Shown here: in pieces, positions 7,816 through 46,883 of the stretch
Numbering within the stretch: the first letter of the stretch is position 1
How the letters are laid out: each line of letters begins with the position of its first letter
Assembly: GCA_018666775.1 (NCBI GenBank)
Contig: JABIXC010000017.1
Location: 496,001 to 560,000, forward strand
DNA: 64,000 nt
Reading direction: 5' to 3'
From: Rhodospirillales bacterium
GTDB taxonomy: Bacteria; Pseudomonadota; Alphaproteobacteria; SMXQ01
Position numbers and translations under genes: made by a program
Notes under the pieces: generated by a model
Told to the model about the DNA's origin: nothing
Databases searched by the model: none
What the model saw: only the letters and a program-made list of their open reading frames with translations

Positions 7816-8283
7816 TTATTTGCCGGTAAATTCGATGGCGCCATCGGGCAACAGATACAAAACATAGGCATCGCCACCTTCGACCGTTGGCCAATGGTCG
7901 CTGCCTGCGGGGTCTGCATACCAGCCCCGTCCCTTTCCATCGAGTTTCGGGTCGCCGGAAACCGGCATAATCATGCCAATTTCTCCGGTGGGATGGACAT
8001 GATGGGGGCCTTTGACGTTTTCCATACGCACCACATCGACGCTGAATTTCCCGGCCACGGTGTCTTGCTTGATCACCCGACCAAACTTAATCCCGCCCAT
8101 TTCACGCTCACAAATCCAGCCTTCGGCCTCGCCCGATGCGCACAAAGCCTCAACGCCTGTAAACACGTCCCCATCTGCGGGGAAGGTCTCGTTCAGAAAA
8201 ACCACAAGGGAATCATCGACGGGCTTCTCTGAAATCTTGTCTGCAATGGTTGCCATCAAACCCTCAAACGTTGCCTTGCTCAT
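7816..8283 (-). CDS. DUF4863 / 4-hydroxylaminobenzoate-lyase-like small cupin-type protein
   Basis: The 155-residue product has a beta-rich cupin-like C-terminal half with HHVHPTGEIGMIMPV near residue 93, GWYADPAGSDHWPTV near 119 and ALYLLPDGAIEF-like VLYLLPDGAIEF at the end. I recognise this as the DUF4863 family, which to my knowledge includes PnbB, the lyase that turns 4-hydroxylaminobenzoate into protocatechuate in 4-nitrobenzoate degradation; I am less sure of that assignment than of the family. Potential metal-binding histidines are His-93, His-94, His-96 and His-120. It is the first gene of a minus-strand pair with the CoA-transferase-like beta subunit and is divergent from the beta-oxidation fusion gene. 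Function in this benzoyl-CoA context is unproven. Confidence 0.7.
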   Translation of the reverse strand: MSKATFEGLMATIADKISEKPVDDSLVVFLNETFPADGDVFTGVEALCASGEAEGWICEREMGGIKFGRVIKQDTVAGKFSVDVVRMENVKGPHHVHPTGEIGMIMPVSGDPKLDGKGRGWYADPAGSDHWPTVEGGDAYVLYLLPDGAIEFTGK

Positions 8284-8444
8284 GGTATTCCCTCATTTCC
8301 AAATGGTGATCTGTTTAAAAACCGGATTATAGAACATCCATTGCAAGGGTACAGCGGCTTGCACGGTGGGCTTCAAATATATATAGATATTGGCCTCCAA
8401 ATAGCCCAATCGGGGCCAGGTGCTCGCAAAATTCAGGAACAAAA

Positions 8445-10541
8445 ATGACCCAGCAAGAAGATGCCGTCATCACGGTCGAGATTGAAGATGGCGTTGCCAT
8501 CATCACCATCAACAATCCACCGGTTAATGCCATTTCTCAGGCCGTCCGCCAGGGACTGAAAGAAGCCATTGAGGCCATCAATGACGATGACACCGTCAAG
8601 GCTGCGGTCATTGCCGCCCATGGGCGCACGTTTATAGCCGGGGCCGATGTCCGTGAATTTGGCAAGCCGCCCCAGACCCCCAGCCTGCCAGAAACCATTT
8701 CAGCCATTGAAAATTCTGAAAAGCCGGTGGTTGCCGCCATTAATGGCGTCGCACTTGGCGGTGGATTGGAAATTGCCCTTGGCTGTCATTACCGGATTGC
8801 CGGGCCTAAAGCCCGGGTTGGCCTTCCCGAAGTGACTTTGGGCCTTATTCCCGGTGCTGGCGGCACGCAACGTTTGCCCCGGTTAGCAGGCGTTGAAGCG
8901 GCCCTTGATCTGATTTCAAGCGGCCGCCATGCAGGCGTCAAAGAAGGTTTTAAATTGGGCATTATCGATGGCGTCACCGATGGCGAAAACGATGATATCA
9001 AGGATTTCGCCATTAATTTTGCGGGCAAAGCCGTTGGCGATCCCCTGCCCCGGATTTCCGCCATGGAAACCGCAAAACCGGCGGATGATTTCTTTGAAAC
9101 CCAACAAAAAAAGCTGGCGGGCAAGGCCCGGGGCCAACTCAGCCCGTTGATGGCCCTTGATGCGGTCAAAGCCGCCGTGGAACTGCCCTTTGAGGACGGC
9201 ATAAAGAAAGAACGGGAAATTTTCCAGAAACTGCGCGATTCTGATCAGGCCAAAGCCCTTCGCCATGCCTTTTTTGCAGAACGCGCCGTATCCAAAGTGC
9301 CGGGTTTAGAGAATGCAAAACCCAGAACCCTTGAAACCATCGCCATCATTGGCGGGGGCACCATGGGCGCTGGCATCACCGTCGCCGTCCTGCGATCAGG
9401 CTTTGACGTCATCATGATCGAATGTGACGCAGATGCCGTGGCCCGGGGCCAAGCCAATGTTGCCAAAAATCTGGATGGTTACGTCAGCCGTGGCCGCATG
9501 ACAGAAGATCAAAAAACTGATTTATTAAAAAGATTTAGAGTAACAACTGAATATTCTGAATTAAGCGATACAGACGTTGTCATCGAAGCGGTCTTTGAAG
9601 ATTTAGACGTTAAGAAAGACGTGTTCCAAAAGCTGGATGCGGCCATGAAACCGGGGGCTGTTCTGGCCAGCAACACGTCATATCTGGACCTCAATCAAAT
9701 CGCTGCATTCACCAAACGCCCCGAAGACGTGGTTGGATTGCATTTCTTCTCCCCCGCCCACGTCATGCGATTGCTGGAAATTGTCCGTGGCGACAAAACC
9801 AGCGACGATGTTTTAGCAACTGGGTTTGCATTTGCCAAAAAGCTCGGCAAGGTTGGCGTGTTATCCGGTGTCTGTGATGGGTTCATCGGCAATCGCATCC
9901 TCGCCCAAATGCGCAAACAGGCCGATTACATGATCGAAGACGGCGCCATGCCGTCAGATGTGGACAAAGCCGTCGAAGGATTGGGCCTGCCCATGGGGCC
10001 GTTCCGGGTCATGGATATGGCGGGACTTGATATCAGTTGGGCTGCGCGCAAGCGCCAAGCACCCGATCGCGATCCCAATGAACGCTACGTTGCCATTGCT
10101 GACCGCATCTGTGAAACGGGCTGTTTCGGCCAGAAAACTGGCAGCGGCTGGTATGTCTATGACAATGGCAAATATGAACCCAATCCCGATGCCGAAAAGA
10201 TCATTTTAGAAGAATCGAGCAAAAAGAACATCACGCGCCGTGAATTCGACCCCCAGGAAATTCAGGATCGCATCCTTTATGCCATGATCAATGAAGGGGC
10301 CAAAATACTGGCCGAAGGCATTGCCAAACGGCCGCTAGACATCGATATGGTTGAAGTTTTTGGCTATGGCTTCCCACGCTGGCGGGGCGGGCCTATGTGC
10401 ACGGCAGATTTGATTGGGTTGCCCAAGGTTCTCGATGCCATCAAGACCTTCGAAAAAGAAGACCCGGCATTTTGGAAGCCCGCTTCGCTGCTTGTAAACC
10501 TTGTCGAAACCGGCAAGGATTTCGCCAGCCTTAACGCCTGA
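8445..10541 (+). CDS. Bifunctional enoyl-CoA hydratase / 3-hydroxyacyl-CoA dehydrogenase
   Basis: The 698-residue product is a fused beta-oxidation enzyme. Residues 1-190 form a crotonase domain with FIAGADVREFG near 64, NGVALGGGLEIALGCHYRIA near 101 and the catalytic-glutamate segment GLPEVTLGLIPGAGGTQRLP near 125. Residues 295-480 hold the Rossmann NAD-binding domain starting IIGGGTMGAGITVAVL, with the HFFSPAHVMRLLEIVRG motif. The C-terminal helical domain ends with FGYGFPRWRGGPM. The enzyme hydrates an enoyl-CoA and oxidises the 3-hydroxyacyl-CoA, here probably for C6-C7 dicarboxyl-CoA intermediates after ring opening. The next hydratase gene follows by 20 bp, and the thiolase is convergent just beyond it, giving a full beta-oxidation set. 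Confidence 0.93.
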   Translation: MTQQEDAVITVEIEDGVAIITINNPPVNAISQAVRQGLKEAIEAINDDDTVKAAVIAAHGRTFIAGADVREFGKPPQTPSLPETISAIENSEKPVVAAINGVALGGGLEIALGCHYRIAGPKARVGLPEVTLGLIPGAGGTQRLPRLAGVEAALDLISSGRHAGVKEGFKLGIIDGVTDGENDDIKDFAINFAGKAVGDPLPRISAMETAKPADDFFETQQKKLAGKARGQLSPLMALDAVKAAVELPFEDGIKKEREIFQKLRDSDQAKALRHAFFAERAVSKVPGLENAKPRTLETIAIIGGGTMGAGITVAVLRSGFDVIMIECDADAVARGQANVAKNLDGYVSRGRMTEDQKTDLLKRFRVTTEYSELSDTDVVIEAVFEDLDVKKDVFQKLDAAMKPGAVLASNTSYLDLNQIAAFTKRPEDVVGLHFFSPAHVMRLLEIVRGDKTSDDVLATGFAFAKKLGKVGVLSGVCDGFIGNRILAQMRKQADYMIEDGAMPSDVDKAVEGLGLPMGPFRVMDMAGLDISWAARKRQAPDRDPNERYVAIADRICETGCFGQKTGSGWYVYDNGKYEPNPDAEKIILEESSKKNITRREFDPQEIQDRILYAMINEGAKILAEGIAKRPLDIDMVEVFGYGFPRWRGGPMCTADLIGLPKVLDAIKTFEKEDPAFWKPASLLVNLVETGKDFASLNA

Positions 10542-10561
10542 TTACCGGGACCATCAAGACC

Positions 10562-11335
10562 ATGCCCATCACGACTGCTTTTCCCAGTGACGGCGTGGCC
10601 GTTTTAACCCTTGATAATCCAAAGCTGCGCAATGCGTTGACGGCGGATGCCAGGGGCCAATTGCGCGATGCCCTTGAAACGCTTCGCAGCGATATATCCG
10701 TCAAAGCCGTTGTAATCACGGGGGCTGGCGGGCATTTTTGTGCCGGCGGTGATATCCGAACCATGGGTGAGACCGACCTTGATGTCATTGATGAACGCAT
10801 GGGGGATGTTGCCAAAACCGCCACTTTGATCGCCCAATTCCCAAAACCCTTGATTGCTGCCGTTTCTGGCCATGCCGCAGGGGCCGGTGTCAGCCTGGCA
10901 TGTCTTTGTGATGTGGTGGTGGCCGATGAAAGCGCACAGTTCACATTTTCCTTTCTGCGCCTGGCCCTTGGGCCCGATTGGGGCTTGAGCTTTACCCTTG
11001 CCCAACGCATTGGGGCCACAAAAGCACGAGGTTTAATCCTGTCTCGCGGGAGCATTGATGGGGGGCAAGCCCATCGCATTGGCCTGGTTGATACGATATC
11101 CGAAGATGGAAAAGCGCTGGAAACCGCAGTGGATCAAGCCGCCCGGTTCAATGACGGCCCAGTCGAGGCCACAAAAGCGGTTAAATCAATGCTGCAAGAC
11201 TTGAATGGCCTGAAAGCTGCCCTTGAGGCCGAAGCCAAAATGCAGCGCACGCGTTTCCCGGCATGGGAACACCAAGAAGGCGCAAAGGCTTTTTCTGAAA
11301 AACGCAGCCCGGATTATACAAAAAAGTCTGATTAA
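10562..11335 (+). CDS. Enoyl-CoA hydratase/isomerase family protein
   Basis: The 257-residue product is a single-domain crotonase. It shows FCAGGDIRTMG near residue 59 and the oxyanion-hole segment SGHAAGAGVSLACLCDVVVA near 99. The position that holds the second catalytic Glu in hydratases reads FLRLALGPDWGLSFTLAQ, without Glu, so it resembles isomerase- or PaaG-like members more than classical hydratases. It follows the fusion gene closely in the same operon and ends two bases before the convergent thiolase. A double-bond shift in dehydroadipyl-CoA would suit the route from BoxC to 3-oxoadipyl-CoA, but the substrate is inferred. Confidence 0.88.
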   Translation: MPITTAFPSDGVAVLTLDNPKLRNALTADARGQLRDALETLRSDISVKAVVITGAGGHFCAGGDIRTMGETDLDVIDERMGDVAKTATLIAQFPKPLIAAVSGHAAGAGVSLACLCDVVVADESAQFTFSFLRLALGPDWGLSFTLAQRIGATKARGLILSRGSIDGGQAHRIGLVDTISEDGKALETAVDQAARFNDGPVEATKAVKSMLQDLNGLKAALEAEAKMQRTRFPAWEHQEGAKAFSEKRSPDYTKKSD

Positions 11336-11337
11336 GT

Positions 11338-12540
11338 TCAGACCCTTTCCAGTAACAACGCAATGCCCTGTCCAACGCCGATGCACATAGTGCAAATGGC
11401 GCGATTAACGCCGCGTTCGTGCAGTTCTTGCGTGGCCGTCAAGGCAATGCGTGCCCCCGACATCCCCAAAGGATGGCCAAGCGCGATGGCCCCGCCATTG
11501 GGATTAACGTGTTCCGCATCATCGGCAAGGCCAAGTTGGCGCATAACCGCCAGACCCTGACTGGCAAAAGCCTCGTTCAGCTCGATGATATCGATGTCTT
11601 TGATGCCAAGCCCGGTGCGTGCAAGCAGCTTTTCTGTCGCAGGTGCCGGGCCGATGCCCATGATCCGGGGCGGAACACCCGCCGCCGCCATGGCAACAAT
11701 GCGGGCACGCGGGGTAAGCCCGTGCTTTTTAGCGGCATCTTCCGATGCCACAATCAGGGCCGCCGCCCCATCATTGACACCACTGGCATTGCCCGCCGTA
11801 ACGGTGCCGCCTTCTCTAAAAGGCGTGCCCAGTTTGGCAAGCACTTCCAGGGTTGTATCGGGGCGGGGATGTTCGTCTTGATCAACAATTTTGGGGTCAC
11901 CGCGCCGTTGTGGAATGGAAACCGGCACGATTTCTTTGGCAAATCGCCCGGACTTCATGGCCGCGCCACAGCGTTGCTGGGACCGATGCGCAAAGGCATC
12001 CTGGTCTTCGCGGCTGATGTTGAAATCTTCGGCAACATTTTCTCCAGTTTCTGGCATAGAATCAACACCATACTGGCTTTTCATAATCCTATTGACGAAC
12101 CGCCAGCCAAGGGTGGTATCGTGCATTTCCGCTGCCCGGGAATACGCCGTTTCGGCCTTTCCCATCACGAACGGGGCGCGCGACATGCTTTCAACACCGC
12201 CTGCAATCATCAAATCTGTGTCGCCTGAACGGATGCTGCGTGCCGCCAGCCCCAAGGCATCAAGACCAGAACCGCATAACCGGTTCACGGTTGAGCCCGA
12301 TACTGTTTCAGGCAGGCCTGCCAAAAGTCCGGCCATTCTGGCAACGTTGCGATTGTCTTCACCCGCCTGATTGGCACAGCCCAGAATCACGTCATCAATG
12401 GCTGCTGGATCAAGGGATGGGTTGCGTTCCATCAGGGCTTTAATGACATGGGCCGCAAGATCATCAGGGCGAACCTGGGCAAGCCCCCCACCATAACGGC
12501 CAACGGGGGTACGAATGGCATCACAAATAAAAGCGTCCAC
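11338..12540 (-). CDS. pcaF: 3-oxoadipyl-CoA thiolase (PcaF type)
   Basis: A 400-residue thiolase, the normal length of PcaF. The nucleophilic cysteine is in [17 protein letters not shown] near residue 90, and the C-terminal active-site motifs [16 protein letters not shown] and [14 protein letters not shown] are intact. Strings such as [17 protein letters not shown] and [15 protein letters not shown] are typical of the PcaF/PaaJ branch. It cleaves 3-oxoadipyl-CoA to succinyl-CoA and acetyl-CoA. The start is taken as the GTG at 12540, which has GGAG eight bases upstream and gives the family N-terminus [19 protein letters not shown]; a longer in-frame extension upstream is not family-like. It can serve both the box route and the protocatechuate route encoded near 60 kb. 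Confidence 0.93.
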
Positions 12541-13715: not shown

Positions 13716-14501
13716 ATGCCCCGCGATACAAAAGCCAAAGGATTTATCCGAGATCTGGACAACATCCTCGATAATTTCTGCAACCGGGTACGCTACATCA
13801 ATGAGCCCTACAATCAGGGCCGCGCCTATATGTTCTGCGAACAGCATCGCCTGAACACGCGCCAGCGCAATTCAGTGCTGAAGCTCAAGGTAGCGACCAA
13901 CACACCGGATTGGGAAACCCGCATGCGCATTCTTGGGGCGTGCACCGAAGAATTAATTGCCGATGACGAATTTGGCGACGGCCTGCCCCATTGGCTGATG
14001 CTGGAGAATGTTGGCGTGAAAGCCGGCATGTCCCGCGCCAAGCTGCGCAACGCCAAACCGTTGCCGACCACCCAGTTGGCGTGGAATGCCTGGATGGGAG
14101 TCATGGGCAATTGCCATTGGCTGGAAGGCCTTTTGGCCAATGTCGTGTCTGAACGCACCAATTTGAAGGGCTATGGCAAGGGCACCTTCAAAAATCATGG
14201 CTGGTTGGGCATTGAACGGCTGCGTTGGAAAAAGCTGTTCCCGCATATGACCGACGCAGACCTGAAATTCTTTAAAATTCATAACGAAGCCGATGAAATC
14301 CATTCCGATCTTGGCTGGAAAAATCTGGCCAAACACGCCAAATCACTCCACATGGAAGACCGGCTTTTGGAACTGGCAGAGCAGAATCTAGCCATCTGGG
14401 AGGTTTATCTCAATGGCATTGGTGATGCAGGGGATATGCTGAATAAAACCCTGAAAAAGCGCAAACCCGCCCGTAAAGCCAAAACAGCCAAGAAAAAGTA
14501 A
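13716..14501 (+). CDS. Haem-oxygenase-fold (PqqC/TenA-like) putative diiron oxidase, HDO-1
   Basis: The 261-residue helical protein resembles the PqqC/TenA superfamily that includes haem-oxygenase-like diiron oxidases (CADD, UndA, BesC, SznF). The ligand pattern can be traced: Glu-85 and His-92 in DDEFGDGLPHW, a helix Glu near 146 (LLANVVSE), then His-189, Asp-193 and His-196 in IHNEADEIHSD, an H-x3-D-x2-H motif as in CADD. The last 15 residues are a Lys/Arg/Ala-rich basic tail. It starts at an ATG with AAGGAT upstream and leads a + strand run of three two-cupin genes. A second protein with the same motif leads the second cupin triad near 46.9 kb. Known family members oxidise amino or fatty acids with O2; the substrate here is unknown. 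Confidence 0.75.
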   Translation: MPRDTKAKGFIRDLDNILDNFCNRVRYINEPYNQGRAYMFCEQHRLNTRQRNSVLKLKVATNTPDWETRMRILGACTEELIADDEFGDGLPHWLMLENVGVKAGMSRAKLRNAKPLPTTQLAWNAWMGVMGNCHWLEGLLANVVSERTNLKGYGKGTFKNHGWLGIERLRWKKLFPHMTDADLKFFKIHNEADEIHSDLGWKNLAKHAKSLHMEDRLLELAEQNLAIWEVYLNGIGDAGDMLNKTLKKRKPARKAKTAKKK

Positions 14502-14612
14502 AATTAACACCCGTTAACGGCGTTTTTTACCCTTCTATCTCTTCTATCCTTGTGGCCCGGTGTGCTACAATGCCGCCGCAGAGTGCGCATGATTGTTCAA
14601 AGCAAGGATTAG

Positions 14613-15752
14613 ATGAAAATGGCGGAAATGCTACAGACTGACAAAGACAAAAAATTCCTGCTCGATCCCTTCCGGGATTGGGTGGATAACGAAGGTATCC
14701 CCTCGACAACGTCGCTTGGGCTTGACCTCAAAAAAGTTGAAACCACCCGTTGGGACCGCATTGATGCCAAGGGTGCATCGGTTGAACTGGTTGGGCGTGG
14801 TGATTTCATTTCCATCTTCGTCATTGATCTGGAACCCGGCGGAAAAACCTCCCCCCAGCAGCATCTTTACGAAGAAGTGGTCTATGTCATTTCTGGTCAT
14901 GGCTCGACCACGGTCGAAGATGCATCGGGTAAAAAGCACACATTCGAATGGGGACCAAAAAGCCTGTTCGCCCTGCCCCTGAACTGCAAATACCAGCATT
15001 TCAATGGTTCCGGCACCGAAGAAGCCCGGCTGTCGACAACCAACAGCCTGTGCATCATGTTGAACCTGTTCCACAATGATGAATTTATTTTCAACAATCC
15101 CTACCGTTTCCCGGAACGCGAAGGTGAAGCCAGCCATTTCTCCGGTGAAGGCGAATTCATCCCCATCAAGCCCGGTCGCAACATGTGGGAAACCAACTTC
15201 GTTCCCGATCTTGGCGCCTTTGAACTGAAAGCCTGGGAGGCACGCGGCGCGGGTTCTTCCAACATGAAGTTCATTCTGGCCGATGGCACCATGCATACCC
15301 ATTCATCGGAAATGCCTGTGGGCACATATAAAAAGGGCCATCGTCACGGCGCTGATTTCCACGTGTTCTGCGTCAAGGGCACGGGGTATTCCCTGCTGTG
15401 GTACGACATGGACGATAAAATCGAACGCGTTGACTGGGAACACGGCGTTGTTTTCGCCCCGCCAGACGGCATGTTCCACCAGCATTTCAACACCTCAGCT
15501 GAACCTGCCCGTTATCTGGCCATTGCCTTGGGTTCCATGCGCTATCCGTTTGTAGATTCCAAACGCAAACTATTTGGCGGTGGCGTTGACACCAGTGTTG
15601 ATGACGGCGGCAACCAGATTGAATACACCAGCCAGGATGCCCGCATCCATGGCATTTATCTGGAAGCACTTGCCAAGACCGGCGTTAAATCAAATATGGG
15701 CGACACCTTTGATGAAGCGCCGTATCTGGAAAAAATGAAAGCGTCCGTCTAA
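14613..15752 (+). CDS. Two-cupin protein, paralogue 1 of 6
   Basis: A 379-residue cytosolic protein with two cupin domains. The N-terminal cupin (about residues 60-155) keeps His-84 and Glu-88 (QHLYEE) but lacks the first His of the HxH pair and the late His, so its metal site looks degenerate. The C-terminal cupin (about 215-310) has His-243 and His-245 (KKGHRHG), a His-250 where cupins usually have Glu, and His-289 in FHQHFN: a possible four-histidine metal site. Shared blocks in all six paralogues are FEWGPKSLFALP, FNGSG, MWETNFVPD, RGAGSSN and the C-terminal GGNQIEY. It resembles paralogue 6 most. An oxygenase, isomerase or lyase role is possible; no function is known to me. Confidence 0.8.
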   Translation: MKMAEMLQTDKDKKFLLDPFRDWVDNEGIPSTTSLGLDLKKVETTRWDRIDAKGASVELVGRGDFISIFVIDLEPGGKTSPQQHLYEEVVYVISGHGSTTVEDASGKKHTFEWGPKSLFALPLNCKYQHFNGSGTEEARLSTTNSLCIMLNLFHNDEFIFNNPYRFPEREGEASHFSGEGEFIPIKPGRNMWETNFVPDLGAFELKAWEARGAGSSNMKFILADGTMHTHSSEMPVGTYKKGHRHGADFHVFCVKGTGYSLLWYDMDDKIERVDWEHGVVFAPPDGMFHQHFNTSAEPARYLAIALGSMRYPFVDSKRKLFGGGVDTSVDDGGNQIEYTSQDARIHGIYLEALAKTGVKSNMGDTFDEAPYLEKMKASV

Positions 15753-15770
15753 GGGCGTGGTTTTGTAAAG

Positions 15771-15810
15771 AACGGGCCCCGGAGCCTTCATTGGCCCCCG
15801 GTGGCCCGTT
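15771..15810 (+). terminator. Hairpin between cupin genes 1 and 2
   Basis: Arms AACGGGCC / GGCCCGTT with further GC pairing inside, followed by TTCTTATC. It sits between two genes of one apparent operon and may be a partial terminator or an mRNA-stabilising 3' end that changes the ratio of upstream to downstream products. Confidence 0.6.
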
Positions 15811-15870
15811 TCTTATCAACACATTTTGAATGCCACGGCCCAGCCTTGGGCTGCGCAAAGGAGAACATGG

Positions 15871-16983
15871 ATGTCCGAAACTACGGGCGACTATTATCTG
15901 CACGACACGTATCTGGCCTGGTGCAAAAATCAGGGCGTCCCCTTCGTCGAGGGGTTTGGCATTGATCTTCCCAGCCTTGAATTAAAGCCTTGGGATCAAT
16001 TCGGCATGGATGGGGCCATCTGTGAACTGGTTGGCGGCGATGATTTCATCTCCACCTTCTGTTTTGAAATCCCCCCCGGCGGAAAATCCAACCAATTGCA
16101 CCATGTCTACGAAGAGGTGATTTTTGTCCTTTCCGGCCATGGCTCCACCAGTGTTGAATTGCCCGATGGCACCAAGCGCACCTTCGAATGGGGGCCAAAT
16201 TCCCTGTTCCAGGTGCCGCTTAACGTCAAATATCAGCATTTCAATGGCTCCGGCCAAGAACCCGCGCGGCTAGCCAGCAACAACAATTTGCGCTTTTTGC
16301 TGAACCTGTTTCGCAATGAAACCTTCATCTTTGAAAACCCGATCCCGTTTGATGCCCGTTTGGGCGAAGACGGTTACTTCACGGGCGAAGGTGAATTAAT
16401 ACCGATCAAGCCGGGCCGCCACCAATGGGAAACAAATTTCGTTCCCGACATTTCAAATTTCGAATTGAAATCCTGGGATGCGCGCGGCGCGGGCAGTTCC
16501 AACCTGCGCTGGATTCTGGCCGATGGCACCATTGGTTGCCACACATCAGAAATGCCTGTGGGCACCTATAAAAAAGGCCATGCCCACACCAAGGGCACCA
16601 ATGTTTTCTGTGTATCGGGCACCGGCTACAGCCTGTTTTGGTACAATGACGACGATGAATATGAACGGGTAGATTGGAAGCACGGTGTGCTCTACACCCC
16701 GCCAGAAGACATGTTCCACCAACATTTCAACACCGCATCAGAACCTGCGCGTTATCTGGCGGTACAGTTTGGCTCTACCCGCTATCCCCTGTTTGAGGTC
16801 AAACGCCAAATTTGGGACAAGGGTGTCGATACGTCATTAAAAGACGGCGGTAATCAAATGGAATACGAAGACCAAAACCCGCGCATCCACAAAATTTGGT
16901 TGGATGAAATTGACAAAAATGGCGTGAAGTCTCAAATGGGCAAAATTTTTGACGAAGAAAAAATTCGCAAGGGCAACACGTAA
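15871..16983 (+). CDS. Two-cupin protein, paralogue 2 of 6
   Basis: A 370-residue two-cupin protein. The start is the ATG of MSETTGDYY, which has AAAGGAG upstream; an earlier in-frame ATG lies in the preceding hairpin region and lacks such a site. In the N-terminal cupin the ligand segment reads LHHVYEEV, so this is the only paralogue with two adjacent histidines before the Glu. The C-terminal cupin has KKGHAHTKGTNVF: the first two His remain but the third, His in the other copies, is Asn. The final FHQHFN His is present. These changes suggest a different metal site or substrate from its neighbours. It is flanked by the hairpin upstream and by paralogue 3 about 70 bp downstream. Confidence 0.8.
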   Translation: MSETTGDYYLHDTYLAWCKNQGVPFVEGFGIDLPSLELKPWDQFGMDGAICELVGGDDFISTFCFEIPPGGKSNQLHHVYEEVIFVLSGHGSTSVELPDGTKRTFEWGPNSLFQVPLNVKYQHFNGSGQEPARLASNNNLRFLLNLFRNETFIFENPIPFDARLGEDGYFTGEGELIPIKPGRHQWETNFVPDISNFELKSWDARGAGSSNLRWILADGTIGCHTSEMPVGTYKKGHAHTKGTNVFCVSGTGYSLFWYNDDDEYERVDWKHGVLYTPPEDMFHQHFNTASEPARYLAVQFGSTRYPLFEVKRQIWDKGVDTSLKDGGNQMEYEDQNPRIHKIWLDEIDKNGVKSQMGKIFDEEKIRKGNT

Positions 16984-17051
16984 TTTTTACGAAGTAAAAA
17001 TGCGCAAAAATAACACGTAATCAAGACGTTGATGAAAGGGGGGATTGAGAA

Positions 17052-18164
17052 ATGGTAGAAATACTGGAAACCGATCACGAGAAGAAATTTCTTCTCGACC
17101 CTTACCTCGACTTTGTCAAAAACGAAGGCCCGCCAATCCATGAAGATTTCGGCATTGATGTTTTAAGTGCTGAAATGGGGGATTGGCCCCGCTTTGATGC
17201 CCGTGGTGCATTTATTCATGTCAAGGGCCGGGGCGATTTCTGTTCCTGCTATGCGCTCGAAATCGAAGCCGGCAAAAAAACGGCGCCGATCAAACATCTT
17301 TATGAATGTTTCGTCTATGTCCTGGAGGGCCACGGTTCCACCACGATTGAGCTTCCCAATGGGGAACGCCATTCCTTTGAATGGGGGCCAAAAAGCCTGT
17401 TCGCCCTGCCCCTTAATTCTGGCTACCAAATCTTCAATGGGTCGGGTTCAGAGCGTGCATTATTTGCCTGTACCCATTTTCTGCCGCTGACCATGAACCT
17501 GTTCCACAATGAAAACTTCATTTTTGACAATAATTTTTCATTCGCAGACCGGTTGGGTGATCCCAAATATTACGAAGGCGATGGTGACTTCACTGCCATC
17601 AAACCGGGCCGACACATGTGGGAAACCACCTTCGTTCCTAATCTCACCAATTTTGAACTGATTACGTGGAAAGAACGCGGCGCGGGCGGCTCTAATATCA
17701 CCTTTATTCTGGCCGATGGCACCTTGCACGCCCACACATCAGAAATCCCCACGGCACGGTATAAAAAAGGCCACCGTCATGGTGATGGCATTCATATTTT
17801 TGCCGTCACGGGTGAGGGCTATTCCATGCTTTGGTACGACGAGGAAGAAGAACCTGTGGAAATCCCATGGCGTCATGGGGTCATGTATGCCCCGCCATTG
17901 TGGATGTTCCACCAACATTTCAATATCGCGCCAGAACCCGCACGCTATCTCGCCATCGGCATGGGATCGAGACGGTATCCATTCAGCCAAATCCGGCGCG
18001 AAGGCGTTCAGGGCAAGTCCGACTCCTCCATCAAGGAAGGCGGCCGTCAAATCGAATACGAAGACCAAAACCCGCGCATGCACAAAAAATGGCTGGAAGC
18101 GATTGCGAAAACCGGCGTGACTTCCGACATGGGCGAATTTATCGACGAAACACCGTTTCAATAG
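17052..18164 (+). CDS. Two-cupin protein, paralogue 3 of 6
   Basis: A 370-residue two-cupin protein beginning MVEILETDHEKKFLLDPY, nearly the same opening as paralogue 4 of the second cluster, with which it also shares high similarity at DNA level over the first 45 bases. The N-terminal cupin segment is IKHLYECF (His present, the usual second Glu is Cys). The C-terminal cupin has KKGHRHGDGIHIF and FHQHFN, the full four-histidine set. Preceded by AAAGGGGGG about a dozen bases from the ATG. It ends the first cupin triad and is followed after 75 bp by the EutA-like gene on the same strand. Confidence 0.8.
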   Translation: MVEILETDHEKKFLLDPYLDFVKNEGPPIHEDFGIDVLSAEMGDWPRFDARGAFIHVKGRGDFCSCYALEIEAGKKTAPIKHLYECFVYVLEGHGSTTIELPNGERHSFEWGPKSLFALPLNSGYQIFNGSGSERALFACTHFLPLTMNLFHNENFIFDNNFSFADRLGDPKYYEGDGDFTAIKPGRHMWETTFVPNLTNFELITWKERGAGGSNITFILADGTLHAHTSEIPTARYKKGHRHGDGIHIFAVTGEGYSMLWYDEEEEPVEIPWRHGVMYAPPLWMFHQHFNIAPEPARYLAIGMGSRRYPFSQIRREGVQGKSDSSIKEGGRQIEYEDQNPRMHKKWLEAIAKTGVTSDMGEFIDETPFQ

Positions 18165-18239: not shown

Positions 18240-19757
18240 ATGCATGATTTAGATTTTGATCACGGCCATATGTCACCAGAAGATCAGCAGGCAGTTGCCG
18301 ATGTGATCTGGGCTGCGGATAATGTTGAACTGATTACGGTCGGTGTCGATGTCGGGTCCTCCACATCTCACCTGATGTTTGCAAAAGTTCATATGCAACG
18401 CCTGACCACGGCACTTAGCTCGCGGTTTGTGGTGGTTAATCGCGAAGTGCTTTGGCGCTCGCCTATTCTTTTGACACCGTATCTGTCTGACAACACAATT
18501 GATGTGGGAAGTTTGTCGTCATTTATTGATGGTGGGTACAAGGAAGCCGATCTAACCCGTGACCAGATCGATTCTGGTGCGGTTATTTTGACCGGTGAAG
18601 CATTGAAGCGAAACAACGCTGAGGCCATCACCCATTTGTTTGCCGCAGAATCCGGAAAATTTGTTTGTGCATCTGCAGGCCATCATCTGGAAAGCGCCAT
18701 GGCTGCCCATGGATCAGGGGCCATCGCCCTATCGCGCAAGGATCATTCAACGGTTCTAAACATTGATATTGGTGGCGGCACCACAAAACTGGGCCTGTGC
18801 CATGGCGGCGAATTACGTGCCACGGCTGCGGTTGAAGTTGGTGGTCGCCTGATTGCCTTTGATGATGACGGAAAATTAGTGCGCATTGAAGGCCCGGCAC
18901 TGGCCCATGCCAAAAGCGCCGGTGTTGAACTGGCCATGGGCAAGAAATTGTCGGAAGAAGAAATTCAGGCCGTGGTTGATTCCATGATCGACGTTCTGGT
19001 TCCTGCTGTCATGCAGCTTGACCCAACCGGTCTCACCAAGGAATTGATGGTTACCGATCCGCTGCCAAAACGGCCAGTGCCCGATCTGGTCACCTTCTCC
19101 GGTGGGGTTTCAGAATTCATCTATGGTCGCGAAAAAGGTGACCACAATGACATCGGGAAATATCTTGGCACGTCCATGACCAAGGCTTTAGAAGACAAGC
19201 GTATCCCATACAAAGTCATGGATCCAGGACAGGGCATTCGTGCCACGGTGATCGGTGCATCCCAGTTTTCGGTCCAGGTATCGGGCAACACCATTCACGT
19301 TTCCAATCCAGACATTCTCCCCGTTCGCAACATTCCTGTGCTGCGCCCCAACGTCAAACTGGACGGCGACATTGACACCGCAAAAATCACGGCAGAAATC
19401 ACTGAAGCCTTGTCTCGCAATGATCATGAAGAAGGTGTCGCACCACTGGCGCTGGCCTTTCATTGGGAAGGGGATCCCCTTCACGCCCGGCTTAAAGCAT
19501 TGGCAGATGGCATTTGTGCTGGTTGCCCAAAAACCATCAAGGGCGGTCAACCCATCATCTTGATGCTGGATGGCGATATCGGAAAGACGCTGGGCAATAT
19601 CCTGACACGAGAATGTGATGTTTCATCCGAAATCATCTCCGTTGATGGCGTCAGCCTGAAAGAATTTGACTTCGTTGACATCGGTGAAGTGATCCAACCC
19701 ACCAACGTGGTGCCGCTGGTGATCAAGTCACTGCTGTTCTCTACACCGGGGACTTGA
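18240..19757 (+). CDS. eutA: EutA-like ATPase (ethanolamine ammonia-lyase reactivase family)
   Basis: The 505-residue product matches EutA, an actin/HSP70-fold ATPase that releases damaged cobalamin from ethanolamine ammonia-lyase EutBC. Visible family features are the phosphate-1 loop VGVDVGSSTSHLMF near residue 38, SSRFVVVNREVLWRSPILLT near 60, GAVILTGEALKRNNA near 118, the phosphate-2 loop LNIDIGGGTTKLGL near 176 and FSGGVSEFIYGR near 286. The start ATG has AAGGAG ten bases upstream. No eutB, eutC or other ethanolamine gene is in the window; the gene directly follows the cupin triad and precedes MFS carriers. It may serve a EutBC encoded elsewhere or have been recruited for another enzyme of this cluster. 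Confidence 0.88.
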   Translation: MHDLDFDHGHMSPEDQQAVADVIWAADNVELITVGVDVGSSTSHLMFAKVHMQRLTTALSSRFVVVNREVLWRSPILLTPYLSDNTIDVGSLSSFIDGGYKEADLTRDQIDSGAVILTGEALKRNNAEAITHLFAAESGKFVCASAGHHLESAMAAHGSGAIALSRKDHSTVLNIDIGGGTTKLGLCHGGELRATAAVEVGGRLIAFDDDGKLVRIEGPALAHAKSAGVELAMGKKLSEEEIQAVVDSMIDVLVPAVMQLDPTGLTKELMVTDPLPKRPVPDLVTFSGGVSEFIYGREKGDHNDIGKYLGTSMTKALEDKRIPYKVMDPGQGIRATVIGASQFSVQVSGNTIHVSNPDILPVRNIPVLRPNVKLDGDIDTAKITAEITEALSRNDHEEGVAPLALAFHWEGDPLHARLKALADGICAGCPKTIKGGQPIILMLDGDIGKTLGNILTRECDVSSEIISVDGVSLKEFDFVDIGEVIQPTNVVPLVIKSLLFSTPGT

Positions 19758-19853: not shown

Positions 19854-21128
19854 ATGACAGCCACCGCCGAAGCCAGTGATTTTCGACAGGATGCCAAGGT
19901 TCTCAGCCTTATCAGCACCGGTCATTTCCTTAGCCATTTCTATTATCTGACCCTACCCCCGTTGTTCCTGTTTATCCGACAAGACATGGACCTAAGCTTT
20001 ACCGAGCTTGGCATCATGATGACAACGCTCTACGCAGTGGCTGGCGTGGTGCAGGTGCCTATCGGATTTATGGTGGATCGGATCGGCGCACGGCTAATTT
20101 TAACCGTTGGCCTGATCATCATGTCCGTCAGCTTCGGAGCAATCGGCATGGCCCCTGCTGCGGGTGAGGCTTTGATGGGCGCCCTGAGTTTATCTTTTAA
20201 TCCCACCTACGGCATTATCCTCGCGTTACTTGCCATTGCAGCGCTCGGCCACAGTGTCTTTCACCCAGCCGATTACGCCATCCTTAATTCTTCCATCAAT
20301 CCCAAACGTATGGGCCGGGCCTTTTCCATCCATACCTTTTGTGGGCATCTGGGTTCAGCCTTGGCACCCGCAACCATCTTGTTGCTCGCCGCATGGACAG
20401 ACTGGAAAATGGCATTGGTGATTGCAGGTTCTTTTGGTGTCATCACCATGTTTGCCATGACCACCCAATGGAACAGCCTCCAAGATGATGCCATCAAGAA
20501 AAGTGATGAAAAAAAGGAAGAACCAAAAGACAAAGCAGCCGATGCCCCCAAAGAGGGCATTGCCTTATTGCTTTCAGGCCCAATGTTGTTGTTCTTCTTG
20601 TTCTTCATGTCTCTAACCATGATGTCGTCGGGGGTTCATTCCTTTCTGGTTGTCGGTCTTGGCGGTCTTGATATTGCCACCACAAAAATTGCTGGCTACG
20701 CCCTGTCTGCCTATCTGTTCGCATCGGCCTTTGGCATTTTGATCGGCGGGGAAATTGCCGATCGCACCGGACGCCATGATCTGGTGGCCTTGGCAGCCTT
20801 CGTCATCAGCGGCGTCATCATGCTGCTTCTGCCCTTGCTGCATCCGGGCACCATCTTGCTGATTGCCATGATGGTTGTTGCGGGTCTGGTCCAGGGAATC
20901 ATTCGCCCGGCACGGGACATGATGGTCCGCGCTGCCAGCCCCAAGGGTTCAACCGGCAAGGTCTTTGGTTTTGTATCCGCTGGTATTGCCGCGGGCGGTG
21001 CCGTTGCCCCGGCCATCTTTGGCCTGATCATGGATGCCAACCAACCCGCATGGGTCTTCTATCTCATGGCCATCTTTATGGGCCTTGCCATGTTCTCTGT
21101 GATAATGCCAAAGCCGAAACATCAATAG
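19854..21128 (+). CDS. MFS transporter, paralogue A
   Basis: A 424-residue 12-TM major facilitator. Residues 15-50 contain the block shared by all three MFS copies here (LISTGHFLSHFYYLTLPPLF), then the loop 2-3 motif FMVDRIGARLI, FHPADYAIL near 140 and the C-terminal RPARDMMVRAASPKGSTGKVFGF. A charged Lys/Glu/Asp-rich loop (KKSDEKKEEPKDKAAD) between TM6 and TM7 fits the usual topology. It is the first gene after eutA in the same direction and is followed by a strong hairpin. Substrates are probably organic acids, judging from the cluster, but the protein does not reveal them. Confidence 0.88.
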   Translation: MTATAEASDFRQDAKVLSLISTGHFLSHFYYLTLPPLFLFIRQDMDLSFTELGIMMTTLYAVAGVVQVPIGFMVDRIGARLILTVGLIIMSVSFGAIGMAPAAGEALMGALSLSFNPTYGIILALLAIAALGHSVFHPADYAILNSSINPKRMGRAFSIHTFCGHLGSALAPATILLLAAWTDWKMALVIAGSFGVITMFAMTTQWNSLQDDAIKKSDEKKEEPKDKAADAPKEGIALLLSGPMLLFFLFFMSLTMMSSGVHSFLVVGLGGLDIATTKIAGYALSAYLFASAFGILIGGEIADRTGRHDLVALAAFVISGVIMLLLPLLHPGTILLIAMMVVAGLVQGIIRPARDMMVRAASPKGSTGKVFGFVSAGIAAGGAVAPAIFGLIMDANQPAWVFYLMAIFMGLAMFSVIMPKPKHQ

Positions 21129-21214: not shown

Positions 21215-22207
21215 ATGACCGATAAGCTGAAACTGACCTTTGCCACTTCCGATTACGATCACTTTCGGGACATCCCCCTTGGCCGCGTGCCTGTTGAAGG
21301 CATTGACCTGAATGTTCTTGATTTGGAAATCGAAGAAATCTTTTACCGGTTTACGCTGCACCGGGAATGGGACGTGTCTGAGATGTCTCTGGCCAAGTTT
21401 GTGGCTCAGGTTGGCGGTGATCGCCCCGACATTATCGGTTTGCCGGTCTTTCCATCGCGCGTGTTTCGGCTTTCCAACATCTATATCAACACCGATTCTG
21501 GCATTGAAAAGCCGGAAGACCTTCGCGGCAAGCGGATCGGCACCCCGGAATGGGCACAGACCGCATCAGTTTATACCCGTGGCTGGCTGACCGATCATGT
21601 TGGCATTCCTTTGCAAGATGTTGATTGGCATCAGGCCGGTGTGAACCAGCCCGGAAGAGTCGAAAAAGTAACGCTTAATCTGCCAAAGGGTGTGAAGCTG
21701 ACACCGCAACCGGAACGCTCCATTGGCGACATGCTGGCCACCGGCGATCTGGATGCAGCATTTTCTGCCCATGCCCCCGATACGTTTGTTGCAGGACACC
21801 CAAAAATCAAACGTCTGTTCCCCGATTATCAGGCCGCCGAACAGGCCTATTACGAAGAGACCAAGGTCTTCCCCATCATGCACATCATTGCCATCCAACA
21901 GCATATTTTGAATGATAATCCCTGGGTTGCGGGTAACCTGTATACGGCCTTTCTAAAGGCCCGCGAACGGGCCATTGAACGCCTGCATGAAATCACAGCA
22001 TCGCGCATTACCATTCCATGGATTACGGATGTTGCGGAAAAATCAGAAAAACTTCTGGGCGAAGACTTTTTCCCATATGGAATAGAGCCAAACCGCCGCA
22101 CGCTGGAGGCCTTCCTTAAATGGCATTATGAACAAGGCATTACAAAACGCCTTTTGAAGATCGAGGAATTGTTTCCAGAAAGCCTTCAGGGACAGTTCAA
22201 AATCTGA
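21215..22207 (+). CDS. 4,5-dihydroxyphthalate decarboxylase-like protein (NMT1/SBP fold), copy 1
   Basis: The 330-residue product lacks a signal peptide and belongs to the periplasmic-binding-protein-fold family that includes the cytosolic 4,5-dihydroxyphthalate decarboxylase. Family blocks are GLPVFPSRVFRLSNIYIN near residue 76, EDLRGKRIGTPEWAQTASVY near 100, the motif SIGDMLATGDLDAAF near 170 and the C-terminal FFPYGIEPNRRTLEAFLKWH. It closely parallels the gene near 61 kb. In phthalate catabolism this enzyme makes protocatechuate. Here it sits between MFS genes, so it could decarboxylate the imported acid; alternatively it is a non-secreted ligand-binding protein. The start ATG has AGAGGA upstream. 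Confidence 0.75.
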   Translation: MTDKLKLTFATSDYDHFRDIPLGRVPVEGIDLNVLDLEIEEIFYRFTLHREWDVSEMSLAKFVAQVGGDRPDIIGLPVFPSRVFRLSNIYINTDSGIEKPEDLRGKRIGTPEWAQTASVYTRGWLTDHVGIPLQDVDWHQAGVNQPGRVEKVTLNLPKGVKLTPQPERSIGDMLATGDLDAAFSAHAPDTFVAGHPKIKRLFPDYQAAEQAYYEETKVFPIMHIIAIQQHILNDNPWVAGNLYTAFLKARERAIERLHEITASRITIPWITDVAEKSEKLLGEDFFPYGIEPNRRTLEAFLKWHYEQGITKRLLKIEELFPESLQGQFKI

Positions 22208-22244: not shown

Positions 22245-23537
22245 ATGGTCGATGTCACAGCAGGAACACTTCAAAAAGATGTTAAAGTAGTCGGCATCGT
22301 GTCCGGTGGCCATTTTATGAGCCACTACTATTCCATGATGTTGCCGCCGTTGATCCCGCTGTTGCACAACGAAATGAACGTTTCCTACACCGCACTGGGT
22401 CTGCTGCTTAGCCTCAAAAGCCTGAGTGCCGGGAGCATGCAGTTGCCCGCCGGTATTTTGGTGGACCGTTATGGGGCACGGCTGATTTTAGTCTTTGGCT
22501 TTGCCATCATGCTGGCAAGCTACTTCATAATATCGGTCACCCATTCGTTCGTGGCACTGGGTGCCTTGTTCCTGATTGCCGGGGTTGGCAATTCTGTTTT
22601 CCACCCCGCTGATTATTCCATCATGAACGGAACCGTCGATAGTCGCCGCATCGGGCGATCCTTCAGCGCCCATACGTTTTGCGGGCATATGGGCACCGCA
22701 TTGGCGCCTGTCATGATCCTGTTCATGGTCGGCACCTTGGGGTGGAACTGGCGCGAAGCGGTGCTGGCATCCGTGGTGGTTGGTGCAGTGATTGTTGTTG
22801 GCCTGTTAAGCCAGTGGCGCCATATCAAGGAAGGCGATTTATCGCGGAAAGACAAAGTCCAAACCACCGTCGATACCAATACGGCCGAAGACGCCATTGG
22901 TGAGGTTGAAAAAGAACTGACAACCTGGCAGGCAGTGCGCCAAATATTGAAATCCACCCCGATGCTGTTTTTGTTCATGTTCTTTGCACTCCAGGCACTG
23001 GGATCGGGCGCATTCAAGAATTTTGCTGTGGCCGGTCTTATCAACCTGCATGGCACATCCCTTTCGGCCGCCGGTGGCGCGCTGACCGGGTTTCTGTTCG
23101 CATCCGCCTTTGGGGTGCTGGCCGGCGGAGTTTTGGCTGATTTTGATAAACGCCACGCGCTTACAGCATCAATTGCACTGTTCCTGACGGCATTGGTTGC
23201 CATTCTTGTTGGCACCATAGACCTGCACTACACAGTTCTGGTCTTCGTCTTTACCTTCGCTGGCTTAATCCAGGGGATCATCCGCCCGGCACGGGATATG
23301 ATGATCCGGGCCGCCAGCCCCAAAGGGTCCATCGGCAAAGCGTTCGGCTTTGTCTTTTCAGGCCAAGCCATCGGCGGCACCATAGCCCCGATTGTTTTTG
23401 GAGCGATGCTTGATCTCAATATGCCGCAATGGGTGTTCTACTCATCGGCGATCTTTATGATTATCTGCATGTTGGCGGTTTTGGGTTCTGCCCGTGAAGC
23501 GCGAAAAGAACAAGAAAAACTGGAGGCAGCTCAGTAA
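22245..23537 (+). CDS. MFS transporter, paralogue B
   Basis: A 430-residue 12-TM carrier closely related to the MFS genes on both sides. It shares VSGGHFMSHYYSMMLPPLIP near residue 20, ILVDRYGARLILVFGF near 72, FHPADYSIMNG near 125 and RPARDMMIRAASPKGSIGKAFGF near 350. The central cytoplasmic loop (residues about 195-225) is rich in charged residues. It begins 37 bp after the decarboxylase-like gene, with AGAGGCAAC upstream, suggesting one transcript with it. Confidence 0.88.
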   Translation: MVDVTAGTLQKDVKVVGIVSGGHFMSHYYSMMLPPLIPLLHNEMNVSYTALGLLLSLKSLSAGSMQLPAGILVDRYGARLILVFGFAIMLASYFIISVTHSFVALGALFLIAGVGNSVFHPADYSIMNGTVDSRRIGRSFSAHTFCGHMGTALAPVMILFMVGTLGWNWREAVLASVVVGAVIVVGLLSQWRHIKEGDLSRKDKVQTTVDTNTAEDAIGEVEKELTTWQAVRQILKSTPMLFLFMFFALQALGSGAFKNFAVAGLINLHGTSLSAAGGALTGFLFASAFGVLAGGVLADFDKRHALTASIALFLTALVAILVGTIDLHYTVLVFVFTFAGLIQGIIRPARDMMIRAASPKGSIGKAFGFVFSGQAIGGTIAPIVFGAMLDLNMPQWVFYSSAIFMIICMLAVLGSAREARKEQEKLEAAQ

Positions 23538-23541
23538 TTTT

Positions 23542-24795
23542 ATGACAGACAGCACCATTGAAGACCCACAGGCAACGCGCAGTGACGTAAAGGTTCTTAC
23601 CCTGATCTCAGCGGGGCATTTCCTCAGCCATTATTTCATGCTGGCCTTGCCAGCACTGTTCATTTTCTTCAACGAAGATTTGGGCATCAGCTACACACTT
23701 CTGGGGGTCATGCTGACCACACGATATGTCGGCACCGGGGTTGCACAGATTGCAGCCGGTTTCATGGTTGATCGCTTTGGTGCCAAGATGATTCTGATGG
23801 CCGGAATCATCTTGATGGTCACTGCTATGGGATTAATGGCCTTTGCCAGTAATTATTATGTCTTGATGCTTCTGGTCATTTTGGCGGGCGTGGGCGATGC
23901 CGTCTTTCACCCCGCCGATTACGCCATTTTAAGTTCTTCAATCAGCGAAAAGCGCATGGGCAGATCATTTTCTGTTCACACCTTTGCGGGCCATTTGGGG
24001 TTCGCAGCCGCCCCTGCTGTGATTGTCTTTGTTTCAACCGTTTGGGACTGGCGCACGGCCTTGCTAATTTCAGCGGGCGTGGGCTTTGCCATCATTTTTA
24101 TAATGCTGACCCAATGGTCAAGCCTGAACGACAGTGCCACCAAGGCTAGAAAGAAAGACCCTTCTGAAAATTCAGAAGAAGATGCCACGACCAAAGAGCT
24201 TCTGACATCACGGCCTGTATTGTTACTGTTTGCCTTTTTTGTCATGACCAGCCTGGCTGGCAGTGGCCTGCACAGCTTCTCTATTCCCGCACTCCATGCG
24301 CTCCATGGGACGTCCGTGGTTGATGCAGGCTTTGCCGTTGGTGGCTATATGCTAATCAGCTCATTTGCCGTTCTATGTGGCGGGTGGATTGCTGATAACA
24401 TTGAACGACAAGACCGGTTTGCGGCCATGGCTTATGCGGCTTCAATCTTTGTTGTCGGCATGATTGTGTGGATGCCCATGCATTATGCCTTGCTCGTCTT
24501 CCTGTTTGGGCTGGCCGGTTTCTGCCATGGCGTGGTTCGCCCCGCACGGGACATGATGGTTCGGGAAGTTGCGCCAAAGGGCAGCACGGGCCGTGTTTTT
24601 GGATTTATCTTCACCGGCCAAAACGTTGGCGGTGGGTTGGCCCCGATCCTTTTGGGCGGGTTGATGGACCATTATCCACCACAATATATTTTCTATTTCT
24701 GCATCGGATTTATGATCCTTTGCATCCTGACCATTCTTGCTCCACGCGGCCCAATGAAGAAAACATCTGTCGCACCAACGGGTGCCGGTGAATGA
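23542..24795 (+). CDS. MFS transporter, paralogue C
   Basis: A 417-residue 12-TM carrier, the third member of the MFS set. The shared blocks are TLISAGHFLSHYFMLALPAL, GFMVDRFGAKMI, FHPADYAILSSS and RPARDMMVREVAPKGSTGRVFGF. The preferred start is the ATG of MTDSTIED at 23542, which gives the same N-terminal register as the paralogues; an earlier ATG at 23494 would overlap the preceding gene by 44 bases. The downstream TonB-like gene overlaps its stop by ATGA, so the two are likely co-translated. Confidence 0.86.
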   Translation: MTDSTIEDPQATRSDVKVLTLISAGHFLSHYFMLALPALFIFFNEDLGISYTLLGVMLTTRYVGTGVAQIAAGFMVDRFGAKMILMAGIILMVTAMGLMAFASNYYVLMLLVILAGVGDAVFHPADYAILSSSISEKRMGRSFSVHTFAGHLGFAAAPAVIVFVSTVWDWRTALLISAGVGFAIIFIMLTQWSSLNDSATKARKKDPSENSEEDATTKELLTSRPVLLLFAFFVMTSLAGSGLHSFSIPALHALHGTSVVDAGFAVGGYMLISSFAVLCGGWIADNIERQDRFAAMAYAASIFVVGMIVWMPMHYALLVFLFGLAGFCHGVVRPARDMMVREVAPKGSTGRVFGFIFTGQNVGGGLAPILLGGLMDHYPPQYIFYFCIGFMILCILTILAPRGPMKKTSVAPTGAGE

Positions 24796-25629: not shown

Positions 25630-26136
25630 TTAGAGGATAATGCTGATTTTACCATGAGGCCTAAGGGCATCATGGTCCAAAACCGCGCGGCGGCGGCGGA
25701 ATAGAAAATTCCCACGCTCCCCCACTTCCAGAACATGTTCATACCGCCCGATATAGGTATCAATGGTGCCCTTGCGCATCCGGACCACCATAAAATTGGC
25801 AACAATTTCTACACAATCATCATCACAGCCAACAACACGCACATTGGAAATCATGCGACGTGTGTTTGATCGCGGGCTTTCAACAAATGCATCCACGCTT
25901 TGAAGACGCTTAACCCGGCCCTCTAGAACTTCTCTGTTATCTGCAACGATATACAGCGTCTCTTCCGGGCGACCATCTGGATTGTCTGTTGCCGGAATTT
26001 CATAAACTGCATCTTCGGTAAATAATTTCAGCCAGTCATCAAGCAACCAATTGTCTAGAAGGTCTGCTTCTAAATAGAGAAAGTCTTCAATATCGGCACG
26101 CTCAACCTGCCCGCCACCTTTGGAATGCGTGTTCAT
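25630..26136 (-). CDS. Aromatic-ring-hydroxylating dioxygenase, beta subunit
   Basis: A 168-residue protein of the SnoaL-like fold used by Rieske dioxygenase small subunits: the N-terminal EDFLYLEADLLDNWLLDDWLKL helix, the strand FTEDAVYEIPATDN near residue 41, and TRRMISNVRVVG near 92. The C-terminal RYEHVLEVGERGNFLFRRRR-type block is also family-like. It follows the alpha subunit with a 4-base overlap, as expected for an alpha/beta pair. It has a structural role in the hexamer and no catalytic metal. It ends 16 bp from the convergent TonB-like gene. Confidence 0.9.
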   Translation of the reverse strand: MNTHSKGGGQVERADIEDFLYLEADLLDNWLLDDWLKLFTEDAVYEIPATDNPDGRPEETLYIVADNREVLEGRVKRLQSVDAFVESPRSNTRRMISNVRVVGCDDDCVEIVANFMVVRMRKGTIDTYIGRYEHVLEVGERGNFLFRRRRAVLDHDALRPHGKISIIL

Positions 26137-27458: not shown

Positions 27459-27486
27459 TTTTCTCTCCCCAATTTTTTGTCCCGCA

Positions 27487-31374: not shown

Positions 31375-31416
31375 TTTTTGTCTCCTATTGAATTTATTAA
31401 AAGCACCAAACAAACT

Positions 31417-31434
31417 GTATGGTACGTAACATAC
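31417..31434. promoter_or_regulatory. Putative TetR operator 1
   Basis: Inverted repeat GTATG-N8-CATAC, 43 bases upstream of the AurF-like start codon, in the gap shared with the TetR gene. Flanking CAAAC and GTTTG add outer dyad symmetry. Confidence 0.5.
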
Positions 31435-31566
31435 TATTTGGTTTGTTTTTGGCAAGGTAAAATATAAAAAAATTGAAATTTCTATTATCTATCTGTAATA
31501 AATAGATAATTTAGGGTGGTTGGCGGCCTTTACGGGGTTTGCACTTGACACAACGGCCCTAACTAC

Positions 31567-46842: not shown

Positions 46843-46883
46843 ACCGGAAAATCCGGATACATATGCAAATAGGGAGAATGACC

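Follow-up and report, generated by a model that had tools for sequence, protein, structure and literature searches.

The described systems that come closest to the operon considered here each resemble one part of it. Members of the heme-oxygenase-like diiron oxidase/oxygenase (HDO) superfamily, such as UndA, HrmI, BesC, FlcD and SznF, carry a 3-His/3-carboxylate (3H/3C) ligand motif, and those that have been characterised act mainly in natural-product pathways (PMC13108848). Gentisate and salicylate 1,2-dioxygenases are type III ring-cleaving bicupins that hold their metal in the N-terminal cupin, EutA is the reactivating factor of ethanolamine ammonia-lyase, and UbiD decarboxylases occur in clusters of aromatic-acid catabolism. 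The operon lies in a window of 64,000 nucleotides from a Rhodospirillales bacterium (contig JABIXC010000017.1), and its first five genes combine an HDO, three bicupins and an ATPase related to EutA. The widely conserved partner of these bicupins is the EutA-like ATPase and not the HDO. The folds are known ones, but their combination is new: searches of the open-access literature on HDO, cupin, EutA, UbiD and operons yielded no description of this layout, in agreement with the original prediction made from the sequence, which knew of no characterised system of this kind.

13716-14501, + strand: HDO1, heme-oxygenase-like diiron oxidase/oxygenase (261 aa; PF14518 match, conserved ligands, model)
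14613-15752, + strand: bicupin slot 1 (bc1), candidate 3-His ring-cleaving dioxygenase (379 aa; Cupin_2; model; own clade)
15826-16983, + strand: bicupin slot 2 (bc2) (385 aa; TTG start, the real start being maybe slightly downstream; Cupin_2; own clade)
17052-18164, + strand: bicupin slot 3 (bc3) (370 aa; Cupin_2 below cut-off; own clade)
18240-19757, + strand: EutA-like ASKHA ATPase with the N-terminal extension MHDLDFDHGH (PF06277, 399 bits; ATPase motifs; bicupin pairing)

The first four open reading frames are co-oriented and separated by gaps of 68-111 bp. The original prediction described these four genes correctly and ended its unit with the third bicupin, thereby missing the ATPase gene directly downstream, which belongs to the operon unit.

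The EutA-like ATPase and its bicupin partners

The EutA-like protein matches PF06277 over its full length (residues 30-500), and the ASKHA ATPase motifs of its subfamily are invariant in the alignment, a likeness that it shares with EutA itself. It differs from EutA in scoring only 346 bits against the EutA equivalogs, which is under every cut-off (598 and above), in its His/Asp-rich N-terminal extension, and in its pairing with bicupins. Its own profile gives 815 bits for this protein versus 179-352 bits for ordinary EutA proteins elsewhere in the phylum. The N-terminal stretch follows an MHD-x-DFDH-x-H-like pattern, contains at least three His residues in 21 of 24 sequences, and is present across phyla. 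A true ethanolamine system is ruled out, since EutB (PF06751) is encoded in none of the 11 genomes of the order, while the E. coli control was positive.

The pairing became apparent in 80 named bicupin loci, a set that is biased because it was fetched by bicupin. Relatives of HDOs occur in nine of these loci, all of them in genomes of the window's family, and no detectable HDO relative is present in any of the roughly 70 loci outside it. By contrast, a long EutA-like protein is encoded in 28 of those outside loci, almost always at most two genes away from the bicupin, and the combination extends over Alpha-, Beta- and Gammaproteobacteria, a deltaproteobacterium (Myxococcota), Actinobacteria and Chloroflexi. 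The operons of G003, G004 and G008, members of the same order, likewise carry no HDO1. The original prediction had taken the HDO together with the bicupins as the defining unit and had suggested a survey of HDO genes near bicupins across genomes; in view of these counts, that definition is too narrow.

Two tests that began from EutA agree with the bicupin-based set. Within the order, a bicupin-family gene immediately adjoins 21 of the 26 long EutA-like genes, and of the remaining five, three are situated near contig ends. Among 72,556 plasmids, the same four records carry both a long EutA-like protein (about 49% identical) and a bicupin, in adjacent positions, while the other EutA records among those listed are ordinary, about 32% identical, and devoid of the first 29 residues. 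In the phylum-wide searches, the best three to four candidates per genome were scored, so that the rarity of 1/398, for bicupins as well as for long EutA-like proteins, is a rough figure.

Bicupins, HDO1 and the conservation of gene order

The three bicupins following the HDO gene are homologous, as the original prediction had stated: bc2 is 58% identical to bc1 and 51% to bc3, and Cupin_2 is detected in all of them, in the third below the cut-off. No model in the profile libraries scanned names these proteins; they reach 21-26 bits against the equivalog NF049978 (cut-off 650) and do not match TIGR02272. Structure prediction, as suggested at that time, was carried out for bc1 and HDO1. The bc1 model (pLDDT 94.4) has as its closest fold by VIA-align a gentisate 1,2-dioxygenase (3bu7; Z 21.3, 266 residues aligned, rmsd 3.6), followed by salicylate 1,2-dioxygenase, and gentisate dioxygenase is the best match in the profile comparison too. 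Sequence and model together identify the bicupins as an uncharacterised family with the gentisate/salicylate dioxygenase fold (Z 20-21 over 240-266 residues).

A predicted metal site is located in the C-terminal cupin. Here, all 138 homologues share His243, His245, His289 and His291 (bc1 numbering), and likewise His230, Ser232, Tyr239, Lys240, Gln290, Arg300 and Tyr301. The first three of these His residues align with the gentisate dioxygenase ligands His119, His121 and His160, and His291 aligns with the outer-shell base His162, so that the alignment reproduces the three-His site of gentisate and salicylate dioxygenases together with their conserved outer-shell His. The His residues of the C-terminal cupin are kept in bc2, in which, however, position 250 is Asn instead of His, and they are kept in bc3 as well. 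The N-terminal cupin retains His84 and Glu87, but the His of its second motif is mostly replaced by a Tyr (Tyr127); only the C-terminal cupin possesses the full set, and the N-terminal metal site of the gentisate and salicylate enzymes is not found. In addition, the carboxylate-binding Arg127 and Gln108 of those enzymes correspond to Val251 and Ser232 in the alignment. At 10-15% identity, with these two residues lost and the predicted metal site in the other cupin, the bicupins fall outside the gentisate/salicylate dioxygenase family by the features tested.

HDO1 scores 29.2 bits against Haem_oxygenas_2 (PF14518), barely over the cut-off of 28.9. Its AlphaFold2 model (pLDDT 86.5) shows the heme-oxygenase-like seven-helix fold of the superfamily, with CtCADD as the best solved-structure match (Z 22.0, rmsd 2.2, 208 residues aligned), and HrmI, UndA, BesC and FlcD giving Z values of 17-19. 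In HDO alignments, Glu79, His92, Glu146, His189 and His196 are invariant and Asp193 is nearly so (Glu in one paralogue); together, these residues correspond to the full 3H/3C motif (PMC13108848). Of the diiron-type ligands originally proposed, His92, His189, Asp193 and His196 are retained; Glu85 is not conserved and is ruled out in favour of the invariant Glu79, and Glu146 had been overlooked. By sequence and model, HDO1 is a member of the HDO superfamily with a predicted dimetal site. It differs from CtCADD and the other members in being only about 15% identical and in being encoded in a catabolic operon with bicupins.

Downstream of the ATPase gene, the operon continues with genes that belong to the same syntenic block.

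19854-21128, + strand: MFS transporter 1, likely for uptake (MFS_1; kept in the syntenic block)
21215-22207, + strand: substrate-binding-protein-like (SBP-like) protein (weak NMT1 match; kept beside the EutA-like and MFS genes)
22245-23537, + strand: MFS transporter 2 (MFS_1; syntenic)
23494-24795, + strand: MFS transporter 3 (GTG start; overlaps the preceding open reading frame; matched in the syntenic block)

Plasmid relatives of the SBP-like protein carry the annotation 'ABC transporter substrate-binding protein', and it may resemble the 4,5-dihydroxyphthalate decarboxylase (Pht5) family; its own match is the weak one to NMT1. Scans for promoters and terminators were uninformative (14 promoter-like sites versus 10.6 expected).

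The order of bicupin slots 1-(2)-3, EutA-like ATPase, MFS and SBP-like gene is common to every one of the five genera in the window's family. Six genomes from four genera, that of the window among them, have HDO1 as the first gene of the operon. The complete series from HDO1 through bc1, bc2, bc3 and the EutA-like gene to the MFS and SBP-like genes is syntenic in G005, G009 and G010, and in G002 without bc2; in G001, the contig ends after bc1. In G003, G004, G007 and G008, the bicupins and the EutA-like gene are followed by MFS and then, where the contig extends so far, by the SBP-like gene. No HDO1 precedes bc1 in G003, G004 and G008, and the open reading frame that takes its place in the G008 operon (L226:7257-7994) was rejected as an HDO-like replacement, as it has no Pfam match and is unlike HDO1. 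The G007 contig ends before bc1, and a search of that genome did not reveal HDO1 either; altogether, HDO1 was not found in five of the 11 genomes of the order, nor did a search of plasmids yield it. In G010, HDO1 is present as a tandem duplicate at the operon head (L035:9463-10248 and 10489-11256).

In the tree, the sequences of each bicupin slot group across genera in a separate, supported clade, with orthologues of bc1 in G001, G002, G005, G009 and G010, of bc2 in G005, G009 and G010, and of bc3 in G002, G005, G009 and G010. For 22 of the 57 HDOs across the order, a bicupin is located no more than 4 kb away, while at most 3.7 such cases would be expected under uniform placement. Taken together with the synteny in sister genera, this count shows that the HDO-bicupin arrangement is not a matter of chance; random neighbourhoods had been named as an outcome that would refute the original prediction.

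Proposed function and competing explanations

Genes around the operon encode two cupins that resemble gentisate dioxygenase, subunits of Rieske enzymes, dioxygenases of the protocatechuate type, CoA transferases, transporters and beta-oxidation proteins. The genome of 2.41 Mb (98% complete) encodes 15 bicupins and five HDOs. The conserved gene order and these neighbours support the earlier view of a dedicated operon in an aromatic-catabolism setting, and the host probably lives on aromatic organic matter.

We propose, tentatively and as a reading that is plausible but short of probable, that the operon serves the uptake and oxidative breakdown of one or more aromatic acids. The MFS proteins would import the substrate, and HDO1, as an accessory enzyme, might use its dimetal site and O2 for a ring hydroxylation or oxidative decarboxylation that yields a gentisate-, salicylate- or aminophenol-like compound. 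The three bicupins may act as Fe(II)-dependent ring-cleaving dioxygenases of the gentisate/salicylate type, each slot tuned to another ring, with the metal held by His243, His245 and His289 and with His291 as the outer-shell base. By analogy with the action of EutA on its own enzyme, the EutA-like ATPase would take the bicupins as its clients and spend ATP on loading their metal or on reactivating them after oxidation, and its His/Asp-rich N-terminus may handle the metal. UbiD genes border on bicupin and EutA-like genes in several phyla, in keeping with aromatic-acid decarboxylation within these pathways; the operon of the window itself contains no UbiD. What is observed are the proteins with their folds and conserved residues, the order of the genes and the pairing; the reactions and their sequence, the substrate and the role of the ATPase are inferred. 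We consider it somewhat doubtful, but worth stating, that a wider and as yet undescribed two-part system exists, in which an ASKHA ATPase that derives from EutA and has a His-rich N-terminus loads or repairs the metal centre of the bicupin dioxygenase paired with it, in Proteobacteria, Actinobacteria, Chloroflexi and Myxococcota, and to which HDOs were added in one alphaproteobacterial family, widening the substrate range.

Several findings weigh against these proposals. In about 40 of the roughly 70 bicupin loci outside the family, the stretch fetched contains no EutA-like gene, so that this gene is not obligatory for bicupins; the His-rich tail is only suggestive as a sign of metal handling; and HDO1 is dispensable in sister genera. 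The bicupins have no close characterised relative, oxalate decarboxylases are close in fold, and with the equivalents of Arg127 and Gln108 lost, the substrate or even the reaction of the bicupins may differ.

The fold likeness to oxalate decarboxylases and the loss of those two residues would also fit a different assignment, in which the bicupins are metal-dependent decarboxylases, hydrolases or isomerases that act downstream of UbiD or HDO steps. Oxalate decarboxylases rank first by Foldseek and high by VIA-align against the bc1 model, and UbiD genes are frequent neighbours of bicupins. Since gentisate and salicylate dioxygenases remain the best VIA-align and profile matches, and since the three His ligands plus outer His follow the dioxygenase pattern and lack the Glu typical of oxalate decarboxylase, we regard this assignment as fairly unlikely.

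To a similar degree, we doubt that the EutA-like ATPase serves another client, either a UbiD decarboxylase or an unrecognised B12 enzyme, with the adjacency to bicupins reflecting a common pathway only. EutA itself works on a B12 enzyme, and UbiD is found next to the EutA-like and bicupin genes of Sterolibacterium, of a deltaproteobacterium and of two Chloroflexi, and also in G005, G008 and G009. However, many EutA-bicupin pairs, for instance that of Phyllobacterium, have no UbiD nearby, the order is devoid of EutB, and direct adjacency of the EutA-like and bicupin genes recurs across several phyla.

The oxidative module of the original prediction can be read in a strict sense, with the HDO and the bicupins all required, perhaps joined in a complex, and their reactions coupled. 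HDOs of two unrelated subfamilies immediately precede fixed bicupin slots, and HDOs are in excess near bicupins, as such a module would produce; nevertheless, we judge it improbable, as the operon lacks HDO1 in three genomes, no HDO is detectable in the roughly 70 bicupin loci outside the family, and 23 of the 57 HDOs are near no bicupin, UbiD, gentisate-like cupin or EutA gene, although some of these contigs are short. Pfam scans of the genes beside bicupin-free HDOs gave no shared theme. A role of the units in the biosynthesis of a small metabolite, which would accord with the majority of HDOs studied so far, is very unlikely given that the genes around them encode transporters of the uptake type and proteins for beta-oxidation, CoA transfer and ring cleavage, and that no synthetase-type genes are among those scanned.

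ATP-driven repair or metallation factors are known for B12 and radical enzymes; to our knowledge, none exists for cupins. If the proposed pairing of ATPase and bicupin is functional, non-heme cupin oxygenases would gain such a dedicated factor, a gene that annotation pipelines label as an ethanolamine factor would acquire a role in organisms without EutB, and a bicupin family with 15 copies in a single 2.4 Mb genome would receive a function. The pair is also present in culturable rhizobia and is hence testable; a bicupin beside the long EutA-like gene is encoded in Phyllobacterium zundukense (plasmid genes at about 469.8-472.6 kb), Sinorhizobium mexicanum and Sinorhizobium chiapasense.

The parallel unit and further gene clusters

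A second unit with a comparable architecture is present in the same window.

45569-46810, + strand: gentisate-dioxygenase-like cupin (true start probably further in; TIGR02272 230 bits, cut-off 442; PDB gentisate dioxygenases E 4e-54)
46863-47618, + strand: HDO2, of a different HDO subfamily (PF14518; shares the HDO1 ligands)
47640-48761, + strand: bicupin bc4 (own slot clade)
48801-49955, + strand: bicupin bc5 (own slot clade)
49962-51125, + strand: bicupin bc6 (own slot clade)

This unit is syntenic in G002, G003, L066 and L067, and partly in G004, G007 and G008. HDO1 and HDO2 are only 17-20% identical, though their ligands are common to both, and no bicupin slot of one unit pairs in the tree with a slot of the other. 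A recent duplication is thereby ruled out, and the label 'copy 1', previously given to the operon, is misleading; with slot clades that are kept across genera and do not pair between units, the two share an architecture but have separate histories.

A different contig of the genome carries three of its five HDOs as a group, surrounded by UbiD decarboxylases, gentisate-like cupins and a single bicupin. The region G000:C7:323800-334600 (L015:7813-18561) is densely packed, with three genes each for HDOs and UbiD-family proteins, two for gentisate-dioxygenase-like cupins and one for a bicupin in about 11 kb; its HDO at L015:16194-16943 represents a third subfamily and is placed between two UbiD genes, a layout that recurs in L088, L106 and L111. 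Up to 10-11 HDOs per genome are encoded in G005 and G008, and in L163 (G008:C201), three of them (7844-8593, 9930-10724 and 10764-11510) lie within 4 kb with no bicupin near. Three divergent bicupins on a single strand at G000:C17:588664-594892 (L012) are interspersed with distant relatives of the transporter-receptor-like protein encoded at 52216-53559 of the window.

Between the two units of the window, a gentisate-dioxygenase-like bicupin (27487-28536, - strand; TIGR02272 267 bits, cut-off 442) adjoins Rieske oxygenase alpha and beta subunits (25630-27656, - strand), a block that is retained in L066. The protein encoded at 30385-31455 (- strand), beside a fatty-acid-hydroxylase family protein, has a weak match to the diiron N-oxygenase AurF (23 bits, under the cut-off) and is possibly another diiron oxygenase. 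Pyruvate:ferredoxin-oxidoreductase-type genes (POR domains and a TPP domain), together with an Fe-S/pyridine-nucleotide oxidoreductase, occupy positions 36116-40775 (+ strand) in this genome rich in O2-dependent enzymes.

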